Below are positions 3,255-34,589 of a stretch of 64,000 nucleotides of DNA, one piece after another. Source of the DNA: Kordia antarctica (GTDB lineage: Bacteria > Bacteroidota > Bacteroidia > Flavobacteriales > Flavobacteriaceae); contig NZ_CP019288.1 of the NCBI RefSeq assembly GCF_009901525.1, forward strand, positions 3,935,501-3,999,500, in the 5' to 3' direction. The notes under the pieces are model-generated. The model was not told the origin of the DNA. It made no database searches and saw only the letters and a program-made list of their open reading frames with translations. Each line of letters opens with the position of its first letter. Positions within the stretch are counted from its first letter, which is position 1. The position numbers and the translations under genes are program-made.

Positions 3255-4133
3255 ATGAAAACTAAACTTTCAATTCTATTATTTCTTTTTGCTTTCGCGA
3301 ATCTACTCGGACAAGAAACCCAAAAAACACCTGCTTTTGAAGTTTCCGTTCATGGAAAAGGCGACACCATGTTCTTAATTCCTGGATTATCTTGTTCGGG
3401 AAATGTTTGGAATGAAACCGTTAAAACATACAAAGACAACTACGAAATTCATGTCATTACATTGGCAGGTTATGGTGGCGTGAAACCAATTGCTTCGGAG
3501 AACATTCTGCAAGAAGTCAAAACAGAATTAATCGGATATATCAAAAAGCATAAAACCAAAAACAGCATTTTAATTGGTCACAGTATTGGCGGATTTACAA
3601 GTTTATTAATCGCAATTGAAGATCAAAATCTAGTTTCAAAAATTATCATTGTAGATAGTTTACCGTTTTTGGCTGGTTCTTACAATGATGCAGTCACAGT
3701 AGAAGTTGTAAAATCTTCCTATGGAATGATGAAAGAAATGTACATGCCAATGGACAGTTTAACGTTGAGAAATACGCTAAAACAATCAATTAATGGAATG
3801 ATGCGCAACAAAGAAAATCTTGAATTTGTAGTAAATGACGCAGCAAAGTCAGACCGTAGAACACTTGGATTTACAGTATTTGAAATGTTAAGTACAGACA
3901 TTCGTGATGACATTCAACACATAAAAACGCCAACATTAGTTTTGACAAACTGGAACAAACCTATTCCACAATTTCCTAACTTTACACGTGCCGATAAGTT
4001 GAAAATGTATCAAAAACAATATGAAAATTGTAGTTCGTGCACAGTAAAAATTATAGACAAAGCAGAACATTTTATCATGCTCGATAATCCAACGGAATTT
4101 TACAAGGAAGTTTCTAATTTTATCAACGAATGA
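3255..4133 (+). CDS. secreted alpha/beta hydrolase
   Basis: The 292-residue protein has an N-terminal signal peptide (hydrophobic LSILLFLFAFANLLG, then QE). The alpha/beta-hydrolase fold shows an oxyanion-type strand FLIPGLSCSG, the nucleophile elbow GHSIGG with Ser110, and the late catalytic His272 in KAEHFIM; the acid is probably an Asp after the strand near residue 230. It likely cleaves an ester or a similar bond in the periplasm or outside the cell; the substrate is not predictable. An intergenic repeat of about 140 bp follows the gene. Confidence 0.87.
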   Translation: MKTKLSILLFLFAFANLLGQETQKTPAFEVSVHGKGDTMFLIPGLSCSGNVWNETVKTYKDNYEIHVITLAGYGGVKPIASENILQEVKTELIGYIKKHKTKNSILIGHSIGGFTSLLIAIEDQNLVSKIIIVDSLPFLAGSYNDAVTVEVVKSSYGMMKEMYMPMDSLTLRNTLKQSINGMMRNKENLEFVVNDAAKSDRRTLGFTVFEMLSTDIRDDIQHIKTPTLVLTNWNKPIPQFPNFTRADKLKMYQKQYENCSSCTVKIIDKAEHFIMLDNPTEFYKEVSNFINE

Positions 4134-4179
4134 TTGTAAAATTAACAGTGAATTTTTTTTCTGAAGTATAGAAAAGGTT

Positions 4180-4320
4180 TTGCGTTAAAAATTTTCGAAG
4201 CCTTGGAGAAAATTTAGCAAAAGTTTTTCGGTTTTAGTTTTCCGAAGAGAAAACTAAAAATACCTGCCAGAAAAATGCCTTTTCTTTTGTTTCTTTTCTT
4301 TGGGCAAGCAAAAAATAAGA
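4180..4320 (+). repeat. structured dispersed repeat, copy A
   Basis: About 140 bases that align, with substitutions and small gaps, to the reverse complement of 34391-34525. Shared landmarks in order: CGTTAA, GAAGCCTTGG, AAATTTAG, a hairpin that begins GGTTTTAG, an ACCT segment, then TTTCTTTTGTTTC and a GC-rich closing arm. In this copy the hairpin arms are 4231-4242 and 4249-4260 around CGAAGA. A second weaker pairing joins TGCC near 4276 to GGCA near 4303 across the pyrimidine tract. It occupies most of the gap between the hydrolase and the sigma factor genes. Confidence 0.7.
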
Positions 4321-4394
4321 AAGATCAAATAAATTAAATGTAATCAATGATTTTATCAGTTATTTCTAATTTATATAAAATGTAAAACACGCGC

Positions 4395-4886
4395 ATGCGA
4401 GAAGATTATTTCAAAGAAATCATCACACATCACAAAGACAAAATCTACCGAATTTGCTTTGCATATCTCTATGAAAAAGAATTGGTAGATGATTTGTATC
4501 AAGAAGTATTAATCAACGTATGGAATGGACTCAAAAATTTCAAAGGAAATTCAAAACTAACAACTTGGTTGTACAGAGTTACGCTAAATACAACAATTAC
4601 GTTCAACAGAAATACTAAAAAACACCTGTCACTTTTTAATAATGAATTGCCCGATACGTTTGAAGCAGCCATTGATACAGAACGGCAATCGCAAGAAAAT
4701 CGTGTGAATAAACTCATGCAATGTGTACAAAAACTCAAAAAAGACGAGCGGTTAATTATCAGTTTAGTTTTAGAAGAACTGAGTTACAAAGAAATTGCAG
4801 ACATCATCGGAATCGAAGCCAACAATGTTGGTGTTCGTATTAGTAGAATCAAAAAACGACTTTTAAAAATATACAATAATGAATGA
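4395..4886 (+). CDS. ECF-type RNA polymerase sigma factor
   Basis: The 163-residue protein has both sigma-70 regions of an extracytoplasmic-function factor: region 2 at about residues 5-75 (IYRICFAYLYEKELVDDLYQ, then the DNA-melting stretch NFKGNSKLTTWLYRVTLNT) and region 4 at about 105-160 with the helix-turn-helix LEELSYKEIADIIGI. It should direct RNA polymerase to a small regulon. Its last 8 bases overlap the next gene, which encodes a membrane protein, the usual layout for a sigma factor and its controlling partner. Confidence 0.92.
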   Translation: MREDYFKEIITHHKDKIYRICFAYLYEKELVDDLYQEVLINVWNGLKNFKGNSKLTTWLYRVTLNTTITFNRNTKKHLSLFNNELPDTFEAAIDTERQSQENRVNKLMQCVQKLKKDERLIISLVLEELSYKEIADIIGIEANNVGVRISRIKKRLLKIYNNE

Positions 4887-7906: not shown

Positions 7907-9601
7907 TTAATTTGAGGTGTCATTTCCTAATGTATTCTCAAGATTCTTAATATAATAGGAAGGATACAATTTTGTATACGCTTTAAAATATTTTGTAAAC
8001 GAATTTGTACTCTTATATCCTATTTCTTCGGCAATATGCTTGATAGAATAGTTGCGAAATTTTGAATCTTCTTTGAGCCGTTTCAATACATATTCAATAC
8101 GTAATTCGTTGATATATTCGTAAAATTTTTTCTGCTTATACGTTGTAATAATTTTAGATAAATACGTCGTGTTGGTCTTTACTTTTTTTGAAATTGTTTG
8201 TAGCGTGCAATTACTATTTAGATAAAAAAGTGATTGTTCTAACTTATCCAAACGCTCTAAAATGGCTTGTACTTTTTTATCTTCAATAGTAAAATTAGCT
8301 TTCTTTTTTGGTACTTTTTTAGCTTCAATTTGTGAAACTAGTTTTTCAAAAATGACTTTATTTTGTTTTCTAACTTTGATGAATTTAAACAAGAAAAAGC
8401 CACACAATCCTAACACAAAAAATGTGAACATAATTACATAAACCAATCTATTTCTCAACTTAGATGTCAAGGAAGAAAGATCATCATTTTCTTTGCGAAC
8501 CGTTTCATATAAATCTTTAATAACTTCAATTTGTCTCGTTTCGTTGTATTTATTTAACTCTATATATTTTTGCGTATACGCTAAATAGTATTCGTTTTGT
8601 TGAAGTTGCTCATACGAATTTGCCAACGTACGATACGTTCCTAATAATTCTGGCGGATTGAAACTATCTACTTTTTCCGTATTTTTTGTAGCAACAATAG
8701 TTTCTACTTTTTTAAGAAATTCAACGGCTTTTTGATAAGATTTTAATTCGTAATATGATTTTCCTATATAATAATAGATTTCTGTTAATCGTTTTTGATT
8801 ATTGAGTCCTTTTGTAATCTTTTCTGCTTTGGTTAAATATTCAATAGCTACTTCAAAATCACCTTTGATAAAATAGGCAATTCCAAAATCGATATAAAAA
8901 TAACTCACACCTTCATCGTCGTTAATAGCCAAACTCTTTTGCAATCCAATTTTAGAATAATGCAAGGTAGAATCGGGTAGTTGTAAACGTAAAAACGTGC
9001 CGCCAACGCCCATATATGAATTAATTGCAATCAATGGATCTTCAAATTGATATTGATCGGCTAATTGCGCATTGTGTTTGTAAATTTCCAATGCTTCATC
9101 AAAAAATCCCATGCGCCTTTTTATCTTCGCAATATTGGCTTTTGCTTTAATTTTTAATTGAATATCGTTTCGTTGATTTGCAATGTCTAAGGCTTTTAGG
9201 TAACTCGCCAACGCTCTCTTATTATCGCCAAGATTTATAATTGCAGTACCTTTTGTAAGATATGATTCTGCCAGCGAAACGTCATTATTTAACTTCTTTG
9301 CAGTTACAATGGCGGAATCACAATAGTGAATAGCAAGCGAATAATTTCCTTCAATAGTAGCAATGCGTGCATTTTGAAAATGTGCATTAAAAACACCTTC
9401 TGTGTCGTTTGTATTTCTACTTTTTTCTAGCAGAATTTGTGTGTATTTTTTGGCTAAATCAGGATTGGAATGTTTCTGTTGAATGATAAATTCTAAGATT
9501 TCTTTTGAAGATGCATTTTCGGGCATTTCTTGCGCAAAGGTGTTTGAAGCAAATACTATGAAAACAATATAACTCCAAAACGTAACTACCTTTCGTATCA
9601 T
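7907..9601 (-). CDS. TPR-containing membrane AraC-type regulator
   Basis: The 564-residue protein has a signal peptide (about residues 1-23), a periplasmic stretch of five or more TPR units (about 60-320), one transmembrane helix near 385-407, and a cytoplasmic AraC-type double helix-turn-helix at the C-terminus (about 455-555, with SIKHIAEEIGYKSTNSFTKY). This hybrid architecture is common in Flavobacteriia: a periplasmic sensor linked directly to DNA binding. It lies among the RiPP precursor genes on the same strand, with precursor 4 next downstream and precursor 5 upstream, so a role in controlling them is a reasonable inference. No effector can be named. Confidence 0.88.
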   Translation of the reverse strand: MIRKVVTFWSYIVFIVFASNTFAQEMPENASSKEILEFIIQQKHSNPDLAKKYTQILLEKSRNTNDTEGVFNAHFQNARIATIEGNYSLAIHYCDSAIVTAKKLNNDVSLAESYLTKGTAIINLGDNKRALASYLKALDIANQRNDIQLKIKAKANIAKIKRRMGFFDEALEIYKHNAQLADQYQFEDPLIAINSYMGVGGTFLRLQLPDSTLHYSKIGLQKSLAINDDEGVSYFYIDFGIAYFIKGDFEVAIEYLTKAEKITKGLNNQKRLTEIYYYIGKSYYELKSYQKAVEFLKKVETIVATKNTEKVDSFNPPELLGTYRTLANSYEQLQQNEYYLAYTQKYIELNKYNETRQIEVIKDLYETVRKENDDLSSLTSKLRNRLVYVIMFTFFVLGLCGFFLFKFIKVRKQNKVIFEKLVSQIEAKKVPKKKANFTIEDKKVQAILERLDKLEQSLFYLNSNCTLQTISKKVKTNTTYLSKIITTYKQKKFYEYINELRIEYVLKRLKEDSKFRNYSIKHIAEEIGYKSTNSFTKYFKAYTKLYPSYYIKNLENTLGNDTSN

Positions 9602-9812
9602 AAAAACTTGATTTTGAGAAAATGGAATGCTCTTTTTTGAAAAGTACGTTAAAAACTGTGGTAGGGCATTTTTAATTATGACTTTTCATGAAAGAAGATA
9701 AAGAGTTAAAAATAATAATAATAAAATATATACATCTTGTTTTGAGTTTTATTTAATCTTAAAAAGGAAGAATGTAAAAAACAGCAATAAAATTTTTGCA
9801 TCATTTCAATAA

Positions 9813-9839
9813 AAAAAGCTTCTCGTCGAGAAGCTTTTT
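9813..9839. terminator. bidirectional terminator after precursor 5
   Basis: Perfect long palindrome: AAAAAGCTTCTCG facing CGAGAAGCTTTTT with almost no loop. It lies 31 bases after the stop of precursor 5 and upstream of the regulator start, insulating the two. Confidence 0.82.
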
Positions 9840-9869
9840 CATATACATTGTTCTTAAAACAATCTTTTA

Positions 9870-10010
9870 TTAATGGTGTTGGCAACATGGAGCTGCTGGT
9901 CCATCAGAGGTTGTCGGACGGAGACCTTTTCCTTTAATTTGATCTAAACTCTCCAAACGTGCAATTGCCATTTTTGCTAATGCTAACTTTTTGATGCTTT
10001 TTACTTTCAT
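9870..10010 (-). CDS. lanthipeptide-type RiPP precursor 5 (divergent)
   Basis: The 46-residue peptide has a leader of related pattern (KSIKKLALAKMAIARLESLD) but the leader end is GKG, not GG. The core RPTTSDGPAAPCCQHH has vicinal Cys and two terminal His with few dehydratable residues on the left. Vicinal Cys with His-His may favour metal binding or a disulfide; equally it may be a lanthipeptide with two rings to the Thr-Thr-Ser cluster. Start and stop are clear and the gene has its own terminator. Confidence 0.65.
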   Translation of the reverse strand: MKVKSIKKLALAKMAIARLESLDQIKGKGLRPTTSDGPAAPCCQHH

Positions 10011-10178
10011 GGTTATAAATTTTTAAATTGGTTATGATCTAAATATAACTATTAAATAAGAACAAAGCAATTTTGCTCAAAAAAAAATAAGTATTTGCGG
10101 ATAGAATAGACAAAGAATTAACTTTGTTTTTTATCATACTCAAGTTAAAATAATTTTTGTGCTCCAGTGTCTAAACAC

Positions 10179-10219
10179 AAAAAGCAACGCCAAATCTCAC
10201 ATGGAGAAGCGTTGCTTTT
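10179..10219 (-). terminator. terminator of the thioredoxin-TPR gene
   Basis: The arms AAAAGCAACGC and GCGTTGCTTTT pair perfectly around an 18-base loop; it is 29 bases after the stop codon at 10248. Confidence 0.78.
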
Positions 10220-10247
10220 CTAAACAAACTTTGCGTTGAAATTAGTA

Positions 10248-11132
10248 TCACTGCATTTTGGCTAACATTGTCTTAGCATTTGTATCATTCGCATCCAACT
10301 CCAATACTTTGTGGTAGTTTTCCGTTGCTTTTTCATAATTTTTTGCAACAAAATAGGCTTCTGCCAAACTATCATAACAGTTTTTATCTGTTGGAAATAA
10401 TTTTGTATTTATAGTAAAAACGGTAATCGCTTTTGATGTCGCTTTCGCGCGAAGCAACACATAACCATATGTATTTAATTCACTTAAACTTTTTGAATAC
10501 GCCTGTAGTTTGGAAGTCACTTTTTCTAAATTTTCAGTTACGTAAGAAGCGCCTTTTTTAGTGAAAATATGATCCAATTGCGAAACAACTTGATACTTAT
10601 GTTCGTATGATTTTCCACGACAAATTTTCAACAAATCGGCTTCCAAACTTTCCACAGGATGTTCTACAATACGTCCAACTTCCTTTCCTCTTTTATTGTA
10701 TACAATAAAGGTTGGAACTCGATGAATATTCAAGTCTTTTTCTTCACCATTTGGTCCTTGTTTATAAGATTCTCGAACATTATTAAGTCCGACAACGCGT
10801 AAGTTGCTTTCAGGAAAATTGGCAGCTTCTAACACTTTATAAAGCTTTGGTACTTCACTTTTGCTATCGCCACACCAAGTTCCCATAAATACTGTAATTG
10901 TATATTTTTTAAGGGTTCGCTTGAGTTTTTTCACAATAACTTCATCAGGTTTGTACGCTTCGTAATTTGGTGTAAACCAGGAATTAAAAGTGTTCGACGT
11001 AAAACCATCTTTGGTAATTTCGCCCAACATTTTTTCACGACCTTTTGCATCTTTGGTAACCTGATTCACTTCTTGCGAAAGCGAAATTTGACATAGTAAA
11101 AGAAATGTAATTGCGATGATAATTCTGTTCAT
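10248..11132 (-). CDS. secreted thioredoxin-like protein with TPR tail
   Basis: The 294-residue protein has a signal peptide ending near SLSQ (residue 20). The thioredoxin fold spans about residues 60-175, with the active-site segment FMGTWCGDSKSEVP. The motif keeps the first cysteine (Cys87) but has Asp-Ser in place of the second, so it cannot form the usual intramolecular disulfide. A cis-Pro segment RVPTFIVYN follows. The C-terminal 80 residues form about two TPR units. WCGDS proteins of this kind are common in Bacteroidota as periplasmic proteins of uncertain function. It is monocistronic, with its own terminator. Confidence 0.85.
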   Translation of the reverse strand: MNRIIIAITFLLLCQISLSQEVNQVTKDAKGREKMLGEITKDGFTSNTFNSWFTPNYEAYKPDEVIVKKLKRTLKKYTITVFMGTWCGDSKSEVPKLYKVLEAANFPESNLRVVGLNNVRESYKQGPNGEEKDLNIHRVPTFIVYNKRGKEVGRIVEHPVESLEADLLKICRGKSYEHKYQVVSQLDHIFTKKGASYVTENLEKVTSKLQAYSKSLSELNTYGYVLLRAKATSKAITVFTINTKLFPTDKNCYDSLAEAYFVAKNYEKATENYHKVLELDANDTNAKTMLAKMQ

Positions 11133-11354
11133 TTTTTGATTGTTTTAAATTGATGATTCAAAACTTCAACAATTAAGAATAATACACTAAAAAAGTGTAC
11201 AACACGTTCAAAAAATAGTATGAAATACATGGAATCGTGCAACACATTTCTTGTAGTTAAAACAGACGTTTGTACAGCAAAACGCGTATTTTATCCGCTA
11301 ATATTTGAAGAACGCTGCGTTTATTAGTACTTTGAATGCTTGTAATAACCGCAC

Positions 11355-12323
11355 ATGAATTTTTTTAGCCATAAAATTTCTAAAATACTGATTCATATTC
11401 TGTTTTGGATTTTGTTCACTTTTGTTTCTTTATTTTACTTTTCAGATTATTATTGGGCAGAAAATCCGTTTCTACAATACTTATCTATTTTAGTCATTAT
11501 TGTGTATGCGAATGACTTTATTTTGTTGCCTTTTTTTGAAAAAAGAAAATGGTATACAATCTACATTCTCATCATTGCATTGATTAGTTTTTTAGCCACA
11601 CAATTGTATTGTTATGCTTTTGCAGAATGCGGTTGTAGCGTTGTAAAATGCTTGTCAGATTATGTGTGGCAAACCATTGTTCCGATTATCTTTTTCTCCT
11701 TTATTTGGATGTTGTTTCGGTATTTGGAGAAGAAAGATGAAGTAGAAGCAATTCAGCTAAAACACACGGAAATGGAGTTAAAATTCCTTAAATCGCAGAT
11801 AAATCCGCATGTATTATTTAATAATTTAAACACGATTTATTCGTATTCATTAGAAAAACCTGCGCAAGTACCTGAGTTGATTTTGATGTTGTCCAATAAT
11901 TTAAAACATGTGTTATATGAAAGCAATGCAACGTTTGTTTCGCTTGAAAAAGAACTCACATTTATAGACAATTATATTGCGTTTCAAGAAATTAGAACCG
12001 AAGGAATTAAAACGATTCACTACAAAAAAGAAGTTTCCCAATTCAATTATGAAATTGCACCTTTGTTATTGATTACTATTATTGAAAACGCTTTTAAACA
12101 TAGCACAATAGACACACATATTCATATAAAAATCAAAGTAGAAAATGACACGTTAGCATGTGTTTGTACGAATGATTTTGATGCAACAAAAATAGGTGCA
12201 GTCGATCAAATTGGTTTGCAAAACCTTAAAAAACGATTGGATTTAATTTATAAAGACACCTACGAATTGAAGATTGAAGAGAAAGAAAAGTATTGTGTAA
12301 CGTTAAAATTACAATTGAAATGA
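11355..12323 (+). CDS. LytS/YehU-type sensor histidine kinase
   Basis: The 322-residue kinase has four hydrophobic helices in the first 125 residues, a short coiled coil, and a His_kinase domain with phospho-acceptor His152 in SQINPHVLFNNLNTIYSYS. A compact ATPase domain follows, with N-box TIIENAFKHS and a late DQIGLQNLKKRLDLIY segment. The stop codon overlaps the start of the response regulator gene (ATGA), so the two proteins are made together. The signal sensed by the membrane part is unknown. Confidence 0.92.
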   Translation: MNFFSHKISKILIHILFWILFTFVSLFYFSDYYWAENPFLQYLSILVIIVYANDFILLPFFEKRKWYTIYILIIALISFLATQLYCYAFAECGCSVVKCLSDYVWQTIVPIIFFSFIWMLFRYLEKKDEVEAIQLKHTEMELKFLKSQINPHVLFNNLNTIYSYSLEKPAQVPELILMLSNNLKHVLYESNATFVSLEKELTFIDNYIAFQEIRTEGIKTIHYKKEVSQFNYEIAPLLLITIIENAFKHSTIDTHIHIKIKVENDTLACVCTNDFDATKIGAVDQIGLQNLKKRLDLIYKDTYELKIEEKEKYCVTLKLQLK

Positions 12324-34194: not shown

Positions 34195-34390
34195 ATATCT
34201 GTAAACCTTTGTGTCAATTAGTGTGTTGAATTAGACGCAATTGTAACGTTTGTTTACAGGTAATTCGTATGTAGAGTATGTTTTTTCCAACACATTTAAT
34301 GCGAGTTAGCTATAAATTTCCTCAAAAATCATTATAATTTATTAAGAAAATATATTTATAATCATCTCATTTTCAAATTATTATTTTCAT

Positions 34391-34525
34391 TTTCTTTGCT
34401 CGCACAAAGAAAACAGAAACAAAAGAAAGTGCGCTTTTCCAGAGGTGTTTTTAGCTGAAAAAGCTAAAACCGCATTCATTTTTCTAAATTTTTTCCAAGG
34501 CTTCAAAAATTCTTAACGAAAAATG
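34391..34525 (-). repeat. structured dispersed repeat, copy B
   Basis: The reverse complement aligns to 4180-4320. The hairpin arms are 34447-34456 and 34461-34470 (GTTTTTAGCT and AAGCTAAAAC) around GAAA. The outer arms GCGCAC and GTGCG flank the conserved TTTCTTTTGTTTC tract. It fills the 395-base gap between the GNAT and mgtE genes; nothing else is seen there. Confidence 0.7.
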
Positions 34526-34589
34526 CTTGCTACACTGCGGAAAAGGAATGGATTGCGTAAGAGAACCAATTATATCGAATTGATCTTTT

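Follow-up and report, generated by a model that had tools for sequence, protein, structure and literature searches.

The window analysed here is the whole stretch of 64,000 nucleotides comprising positions 3935501–3999500 of the Kordia antarctica genome (5.50 Mb, one contig). It contains two members of a dispersed repeat of approximately 170 bp. Copy 1 occupies positions 4156–4324 of the window on the plus strand and copy 2 positions 34383–34545 on the minus strand; both match the covariance model R1 described below at model positions 1–168, with 169.9 and 172.8 bits respectively. The original prediction had pointed out two long look-alike stretches in inverted orientation (4180–4320 and the reverse complement of 34391–34525). 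Alignment of the whole element bears this out, the limits given by the model being slightly wider.

In the predicted architecture helix P1 closes a three-way junction with P2 and P3 and hairpin P4 comes next. P2 has an internal loop (CGTTAA/TTTAG) and an apical loop of GAAGCCTTGGA or a close variant, while the loop of P3 is variable. In copy 1 (all parts on the plus strand) the 5’ strand of P1 is located at 4156–4163 and pairs with the 3’ strand at 4268–4275, and all 8 P1 pairs are compensated in the large alignment A4 (see below). The P2 arm extends from 4170 to 4229 with a stem (4170–4183/4217–4229), an upper stem (4188–4196/4208–4215) and the highly conserved loop GAAGCCTTGGA at 4197–4207. 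P3 follows at 4230–4264. Directly downstream of P1 lies the 5’ arm of pseudoknot stem 1 (S1; TGCC, 4276–4279), which pairs with the loop sequence GGCA at 4303–4306 of the P4 hairpin and is supported by covariation of S1. The third-strand tract TTTTCTTTTG is found at 4280–4289. P4 (4294–4319) consists of the strand W (4294–4302), the loop and a purine strand from 4309. The latter is mutated, reading CAAAAAATA and not CAAAGAAAA, so that the 3’ hairpin of copy 1 is decayed.

In copy 2 (all parts on the minus strand) the 5’ strand of P1 at 34538–34545 pairs with 34434–34441, the P2 arm covers 34472–34530 with the loop GAAGCCTTGGA at 34494–34504, and P3 is located at 34444–34471. The 5’ arm of S1 is GCGCAC (34429–34434), of which the internal CGCA pairs with the loop TGCG at 34401–34404. 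It is followed by the third-strand tract TTTCTTTTG (34420–34428) and an intact P4 hairpin (34390–34413) with W TTTTCTTTG at 34405–34413 and the purine strand CAAAGAAAA at 34390–34398. Both copies contain GAAGCCTTGGA exactly, and no other exact site exists in the window. A central hairpin that differs between the copies with its pairing kept had been described before. It corresponds to P3, in which a T-A pair is replaced by C-G, the loop being shortened as well. The “second stem” of the original prediction (TGCC/GGCA and GCAC/GTGC) involves real pairing, which however does not close a simple hairpin but joins an upstream arm to the loop of the next hairpin, as stem 1 of a pseudoknot. Taken alone, copy 1 shows unexceptional folding (z = -1.32; 20 of 200 shuffles fold equally well). 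For an intact copy (L012) folding is significant both as RNA (z = -3.12) and as DNA (z = -4.11).

A search of the K. antarctica genome with copy 1 yielded 44 places, 40 of them at E ≤ 1e-32. Thirty loci from this search (copy 1 included) were aligned together with copy 2 in its correct orientation, and 22 aligned sequences gave rise to the covariance model R1 with 168 positions and 54 pairs (alignment A2). Among these copies of a single genome compensatory changes occur in 10 of 46 predicted pairs. Alignment A4 comprises 87 matches, mostly from other genera and some from the same genus, with 79 distinct rows. Here 96.2% of 4035 pair cells are paired and changes on both sides are found in 51 of the 54 pairs. 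The covariation score is 0.640 compared to 0.168 for shuffles, none of 500 reaching the real value. Fitting A4 to the model biases the pair counts in favour of the latter. When the partners were slid by one to three columns in the same alignment, the score was at most 0.149 and thus nowhere near the real one. Selection for structure, as inferred in the original prediction, is therefore supported computationally; further copies with uncompensated arm changes had been named as evidence that would refute it, and the opposite was found. G-U cells are much more frequent than A-C cells (221 versus 24), which identifies the strand as drawn as the folding strand. This strand is more often the gene-sense strand.

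Three-strand covariation predicts that the 3’ part of the element is an H-type pseudoknot with a triple helix. Stem 1, formed by the upstream arm and the P4 loop, occurs in different variants (TGCC/GGCA, GCAC/GTGC, GTCC/GGAC, TGTC/GACA, CTTGAA/TTCAAG and others). In rows readable by the parser, 33 of 36 distinct arm-loop pairs have a stem 1 of 3 bp or more (16.6 on average when loops are permuted, maximum 25) and 22 of 36 one of 4 bp or more (3.9 on average, maximum 12; 2000 permutations in both cases). By the parallel Hoogsteen rule, which places U on A and C on G, the linker that connects arm and hairpin (TTTCTTTT) matches the 3’ strand of P4 (AAAGAAAA). The pyrimidine tract that had been noted as conserved covaries with the purine strand of the hairpin. 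Elsewhere the strands also change in concert: TTTTCTTT with AAAAGAAA, TTTTTTT with AAAAAAA, TTTCTCTT with AAAGAGAA and TTTCCTTT with AAAGGAAA.

A non-circular test of the linker was carried out on 434 sequences (2.9 Mb), searching for stem 1 and hairpin only and leaving the linker letters free. A perfect Hoogsteen linker (7/7) was present in 169 of 249 unique entries, compared to 12.7 with shuffled linkers; in this count the same element may appear twice, in different registers. Counting each place once and omitting the fixed-pattern loci, 36 of 65 match (mean 3.3, maximum 9 in 1000 shuffles). If the purine strand is non-canonical (n = 36), its own matching linker is found in 14 entries, and the canonical linker would match none; the remaining 22, as judged by eye, mostly resemble chance hairpins. 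Loci L404–L433 were fetched by a pattern fixing the pyrimidine and purine places with C and G positions free. This pattern is present in 15 of 395 genomes of the same phylum, and the reversed control pattern occurred at one place. One genome (G553) is an exception to the linker rule, being one position off. An antiparallel third strand likewise gave 7/7 in 91 of 249 entries, a control that does not discriminate because the commonest purine strands are mirror-symmetric. Many loci share source genomes and are not independent. H-DNA, i.e. a mirror repeat in duplex DNA, was also considered and rejected: it fits the symmetry of linker and hairpin, but neither stem 1 nor a purine arm on the same strand. 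In the open-access literature, supplements excluded, we found no description of the pseudoknot or its sequence. The same predicted triplex pseudoknot was seen in another family (L404, L413, L332, L414 and L428) with a stem 1 of 6–7 bp (CTTGAY/RTCAAG). Its upstream context differs and includes ..GCCTTGAY.. in most of these loci.

A pseudoknot-hairpin pattern was found in at least 119 stretches of the genome collection. According to our reading of the record titles, the 80 titles listed include Pseudomonadota, Bacillota, Desulfobacterota and Bacteroidota. The pattern had been shaped by a proteobacterial palindrome and required neither the upstream arm nor the TTT preceding the tract. TTT is nevertheless present in 128 of 130 matches, though not asked for. 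In the named genomes 77 of 82 distinct arm-loop pairs form a stem 1 of 3 bp or more (37.6 on average after permutation, never above 50), and 63 form one of 4 bp or more (10.3 on average, never above 20).

Searching with R1 we found at least 112 copies of the whole element in the K. antarctica genome at E ≤ 2.5e-13. Of 131 matches at E ≤ 1, 19 were excluded as weak, short or lying on the opposite strand of a copy (E 7e-8 to 0.6). The number is a lower bound since only 150 of 10,888 first-look candidates were scored. Among 40 related genomes (K. antarctica included) 16 have a match at E ≤ 0.001: K. antarctica itself, 9 of 10 congeners, 3 of 14 genera elsewhere in the family and 3 of 15 families elsewhere in the order, one of the latter (G032) comprising essentially the 3’ part only. 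Within the genus copy numbers range from 0 (G007) over at least 54 (G006) and at least 73 (G005) to the at least 112 of K. antarctica. A covariance-model search across the family, proposed with the original prediction as a check, gave matches at E ≤ 1e-6 in 88 of 299 genomes and 76 of 236 genera; in this draw stricter filters were used and weak matches were lost. Viral contigs gave no match for the exact core pattern, and blastn with one element copy gave no match in plasmids or phages. For E. coli we did not find a match for a 36-mer of the pseudoknot hairpin, a query that may have been weakened by the low-complexity filter.

We then compared the sites of the two window copies with the congeners. 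At the site of copy 1 the same neighboring genes adjoin without the element in G005, G009 and G008; G006 contains about 100 bp of other DNA and G007 a different upstream gene. At the site of copy 2 the same two genes are found without the element in G009. In the block comparable with G005, none of 6 K. antarctica copies and none of 7 G005 copies (one of the seven being a weak match) is shared; 6 and 4 further copies, respectively, lie in a non-comparable stretch and were left out. Empty sites in congeners and complete turnover (0 of 13 comparable sites shared) agree with the mobile non-autonomous element that the original prediction had considered. It had also suggested a search for insertion scars in sister strains. 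Element-free sites do exist, but exact insertion points relative to G005 are unreadable because the intergenic DNA is too diverged (about 70–88% identity in aligned blocks). The comparison of a further species pair (G078 and G297) was confounded by tandem copies. In one locus of G078 (L354, G078:C5:14000-30000, positions 9063–12089) copies in tandem are about 360–390 bp apart with a similar spacer, their P4 loops being short in some and containing an inserted hairpin in others.

In seven other genomes the copies are alike across the fold from P1 to P4. Four of them (G166, G116, G070 and G065) show little likeness beyond the fold. In the other three (G312, G277 and G291) some pairs of copies share longer flanks, and the unit is therefore not always the bare fold. 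Its ends coincide with those of the fold in K. antarctica and in part of the other genomes. In K. antarctica 51 of 112 copies lack a recognisable terminal repeat on either side (mismatches at 6 or more of 18 positions on each side), and their consensus fades out within a few bases of the fold. Of the 112 copies, 35 are located within a unit of 268–368 bp with terminal inverted repeats (TIRs) AACSTGAGTTCGAYATAA; with another threshold 38 copies have both TIRs and 23 partial ones. Target duplications of 3, 4 and 5 bp were observed 12, 11 and 8 times compared to 3.3, 1.9 and 0.6 expected by chance. TIRs on both sides and duplications above chance indicate that these copies moved as DNA. By eye, no TIRs were detected in the copy comparisons of the seven other genomes. 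It seems that a MITE has picked up the element in K. antarctica, and that the element as such does not generally include TIRs.

The K. antarctica genome contains 119 sites of AACSTGAGTTCGAYATAA at up to 3 mismatches (control: 21), belonging to a MITE family of about 295 bp with 3–5 bp target duplications. Among the listed sites no pair brackets a gap of transposase size. In 32 of 112 copies a REP-like palindrome (around CTTGATTCAG) replaces part of the 5’ strand of P4, e.g. at G000:C1:5015950-5016101 and 3421109-3421260 (L212 and L211). These copies have several different backgrounds, so that chimeric copies propagate. A second small module (TCGAAGATTCATGARYTCC..GAACTAAA) is inserted after TGGAAA, at a site within the P2 arm in some copies and between P1 and pseudoknot in others (G000:C1:1594517-1594737, 773907-774110 and 1215927-1216119). 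Its sequence GATTCATGA is found in 13 of 112 copies, and it looks like another mobile element nested in the repeat.

At E ≤ 1e-5 matches to RVT_1 (PF00078) are present in 5 of 11 genomes of the genus including two in K. antarctica, but are absent from G005 and G006 despite their many copies; reverse transcriptases outside PF00078 are not covered. Y1_Tnp (PF01797, E ≤ 1e-5) was also found in 5 of 11 genomes, and has no match in K. antarctica, the genome with the most copies counted. Neither protein tracks copy number within the genus, and an RVT_1 protein or Y1 transposase of the same genome is therefore not supported as driver of the copies. The view of the clusters as gene-cassette arrays was dropped, since the five inspected are not such arrays; attC core sites and integrases were outside the scope of this inspection.

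The element favours the 3’ ends of genes in sense orientation. Using simple ORF calls, 82 of 111 copies in K. antarctica have a co-directional upstream gene and 62 of 112 a co-directional downstream gene. Between tandem genes 49 copies are sense and 17 antisense (p = 1e-4). The median distance past the stop codon of a co-directional upstream gene is 49–67 nt, and 5 copies overlap an ORF (≥70 aa) by at least 40 bases. Outside the genus tandem contexts contain 22 sense and 9 antisense copies (56 copies, p = 0.03). In named genomes from several phyla, the pseudoknot pattern gives 38 and 17 (92 places, p = 0.006). One copy (L359, 3079–3238) is located between two genes inside a co-directional gene run. 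Along the K. antarctica chromosome the copies show a strand bias: the minus strand prevails at 1.5–3.0 Mb (22 versus 7) and the plus strand at 3.5–5.5 Mb (32 versus 8).

The calculations establish the fold with its compensatory evolution, the covariation of three strands, the folding strand, the turnover of sites in two species and the preference for sense 3’ ends. As the fold is maintained and all compared sites were lost, this suggests that the fold is kept for the persistence or spread of the element and not for one host gene. The folding strand, the G-U pairs and the position at 3’ ends point to RNA. For these reasons we favour, with moderate confidence, a mobile non-autonomous chromosomal element whose RNA fold has a triplex-guarded 3’ end and is recognised in trans, although a transcript, the triplex and an enzyme have not been shown. 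The gene-sense strand would fold as RNA into the three-way junction (P1–P3) followed by the H-type pseudoknot, and the pseudoknot would carry a pyrimidine-motif triple helix (U.A-U, C+.G-C) in its major groove. We infer that the element sits in transcribed 3’ UTRs, that the triplex may guard the 3’ end of the folded RNA against exonucleases, and that the folded RNA may be the form which some trans-acting machinery recognises to spread it further. In K. antarctica about a third of the copies would in addition have been taken up by the TIR-bearing DNA MITE and moved as DNA. We count against this explanation that the searches for RVT_1 and Y1_Tnp gave no mobilising protein, that folded single-stranded DNA explains much of the same evidence, that 35 of 112 copies have TIRs, and that loop 3 of the pseudoknot, with about 2 nt, is tight.

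A host module of the 3’ UTR and a folded single-stranded DNA remain open. In the former case the triplex pseudoknot would block 3’-to-5’ exonucleases and stabilise the upstream message, mobility being incidental and copies being kept because they are helpful; REP elements are thought to stabilise upstream messages in a similar way. The sense orientation just past stop codons in K. antarctica, the like preference seen in other genera as well as with the pseudoknot pattern in several phyla, and the L359 copy within a co-directional run are all compatible with it. We consider it possible but rather doubtful, since none of the 13 comparable sites is common to the two congeners, so that no site there was kept over that time, and since P4 is broken in one of the two copies of the window. 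Alternatively, the folded sense strand of the DNA could be the substrate of an HUH-like transposase or recombinase, comparable to IS200/IS605 ends, REPs and attC sites. The copies without recognisable TIRs, whose likeness ends near the fold, the significant stability of the folded DNA and the strand bias along the chromosome would suit such a substrate. However, the frequent G-U pairs suit RNA better, Y1_Tnp has no match in the very genome with the highest copy count, and the inspected clusters are not cassette arrays, which in our view makes this reading unlikely.

That the element is merely an ordinary MITE, a TIR-bearing remnant of a DNA transposon whose inside folds by chance, was already disfavoured and appears the least probable of these readings. 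It draws on the TIR units of 268–368 bp and the excess of target duplications, but would not account for the 51 of 112 copies lacking a recognisable TIR or for the seven other genomes without any by eye; moreover, nearly every pair covaries across genera, which one would not expect for the filling of a MITE. The implications depend on the role of the pseudoknot. Should it protect the 3’ ends of RNA, it would represent a portable stability element of bacteria; should it serve as the handle for spread, bacteria would possess mobility through folded RNA.

Several known systems resemble the element in form. The pseudoknot of telomerase RNA is of the H-type, and the major groove of its stem 2 accommodates U.A-U triples with the U-rich loop 1. 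The pseudoknot of the element has the same topology, and no homology is claimed; unlike telomerase RNA, the element is a dispersed bacterial repeat without template or telomerase protein. The same topology is also shared by the triplex pseudoknots of the SAM-II, SAM-V and preQ1-II riboswitches, again in form and not by kinship. These riboswitches are located upstream of fixed genes and bind ligands, whereas the element is mobile and repeated, follows gene ends and has no known ligand. REP/RAYT systems, MITEs, IS200/IS605 ends and attC sites are short, dispersed, folded and non-autonomous, as is the element, but its multi-helix fold is larger and includes a predicted pseudoknot and triplex. It further differs from MITEs in the large fraction of K. 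antarctica copies without recognisable TIRs, and from REP/RAYT systems in the absence of a Y1 (TnpA_REP) transposase match (PF01797, E ≤ 1e-5) in that genome.

The domains upstream of the pseudoknot differ. In several gammaproteobacterial loci this domain resembles TwoAYGGAY RNA (RF01731), which has been known since 2010. Among 15 hand-picked pseudoknot-bearing genomes 8 match RF01731 at E ≤ 0.01, 5 of them over the cut-off, compared to 0 of 14 controls. In 5 of 30 TwoAYGGAY loci scanned (four genomes) a canonical pseudoknot follows 29–62 nt after the match. By eye, clear variants of the pseudoknot are present in L375 and L379 and partial ones in L374 and L376; the flanks were incomplete in 8 of the 30 loci and the remainder were not read by eye. 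This suggests that the Rfam model of TwoAYGGAY stops short of a conserved 3’ domain. TwoAYGGAY resembles the element in that both are repeats with a structured RNA (predicted in the case of the element) whose outer stem encloses two hairpins, but its loops are unlike those of the window element and the pseudoknot lies outside the Rfam match. AYGGAY loops on two hairpins are absent from the element, in which the P2 loop is GAAGCCTTGGA or nearly so and the P3 loop varies. At the gathering score the window has no match to RF01731 or to any other Rfam 15 family for the element. RF01731 is also absent from the six matches listed at E ≤ 5 for 4100–4420, and six loci searched at E ≤ 0.5 gave neither an RF01731 match nor an Rfam family for the element.

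TwoAYGGAY is a family of unknown function for which CsrA binding has been proposed (PMC4333381), is listed for Rfam 15 among the structures improved by R-scape (PMC11701678) and appears as a table row (PMC2864571). The last source also contains a GUCCY-hairpin motif from Bacteroidetes and Proteobacteria, whose name and taxa are suggestive as stem 1 is often GUCC/GGAC. The table gives no Rfam number for it, and the possible likeness rests on name and taxa alone.

Several findings were absent from the original prediction, namely the pseudoknot and its predicted triple helix, the occurrence in several phyla, the number of copies and the connection to TwoAYGGAY. We put forward only tentatively, and with clear doubts, an unrecognised superfamily of mobile bacterial RNAs in at least four phyla, with a telomerase-like triple-helix pseudoknot at the 3’ end and interchangeable upstream domains (the three-way junction of the window element, TwoAYGGAY and others), which would move through RNA and thus be a counterpart of SINEs. 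In the open-access literature we found no work that brings together a bacterial repeat of high copy number, a triple-helix pseudoknot supported by three-strand covariation, and TwoAYGGAY.

Two Rfam families of sRNAs overlap copies of the pseudoknot hairpin, RF02421 in L083 and RF02902 in L107. These overlaps give no more than a hint of transcription of relatives; our literature search did not find a paper naming RF02902. In L107 (Pasteurella testudinis) the pseudoknot copy is located at 3971–4098 with an interrupted purine strand, and the match to RF02902 (AaHKsRNA22) at 4000–4098 overlaps it. In L083 (Paraburkholderia haematera, 4272–4787) two outward-facing pseudoknots end a unit of about 500 bp with long inverted repeats, and a pair of pseudoknots on opposite strands is also found in several other Paraburkholderia loci.
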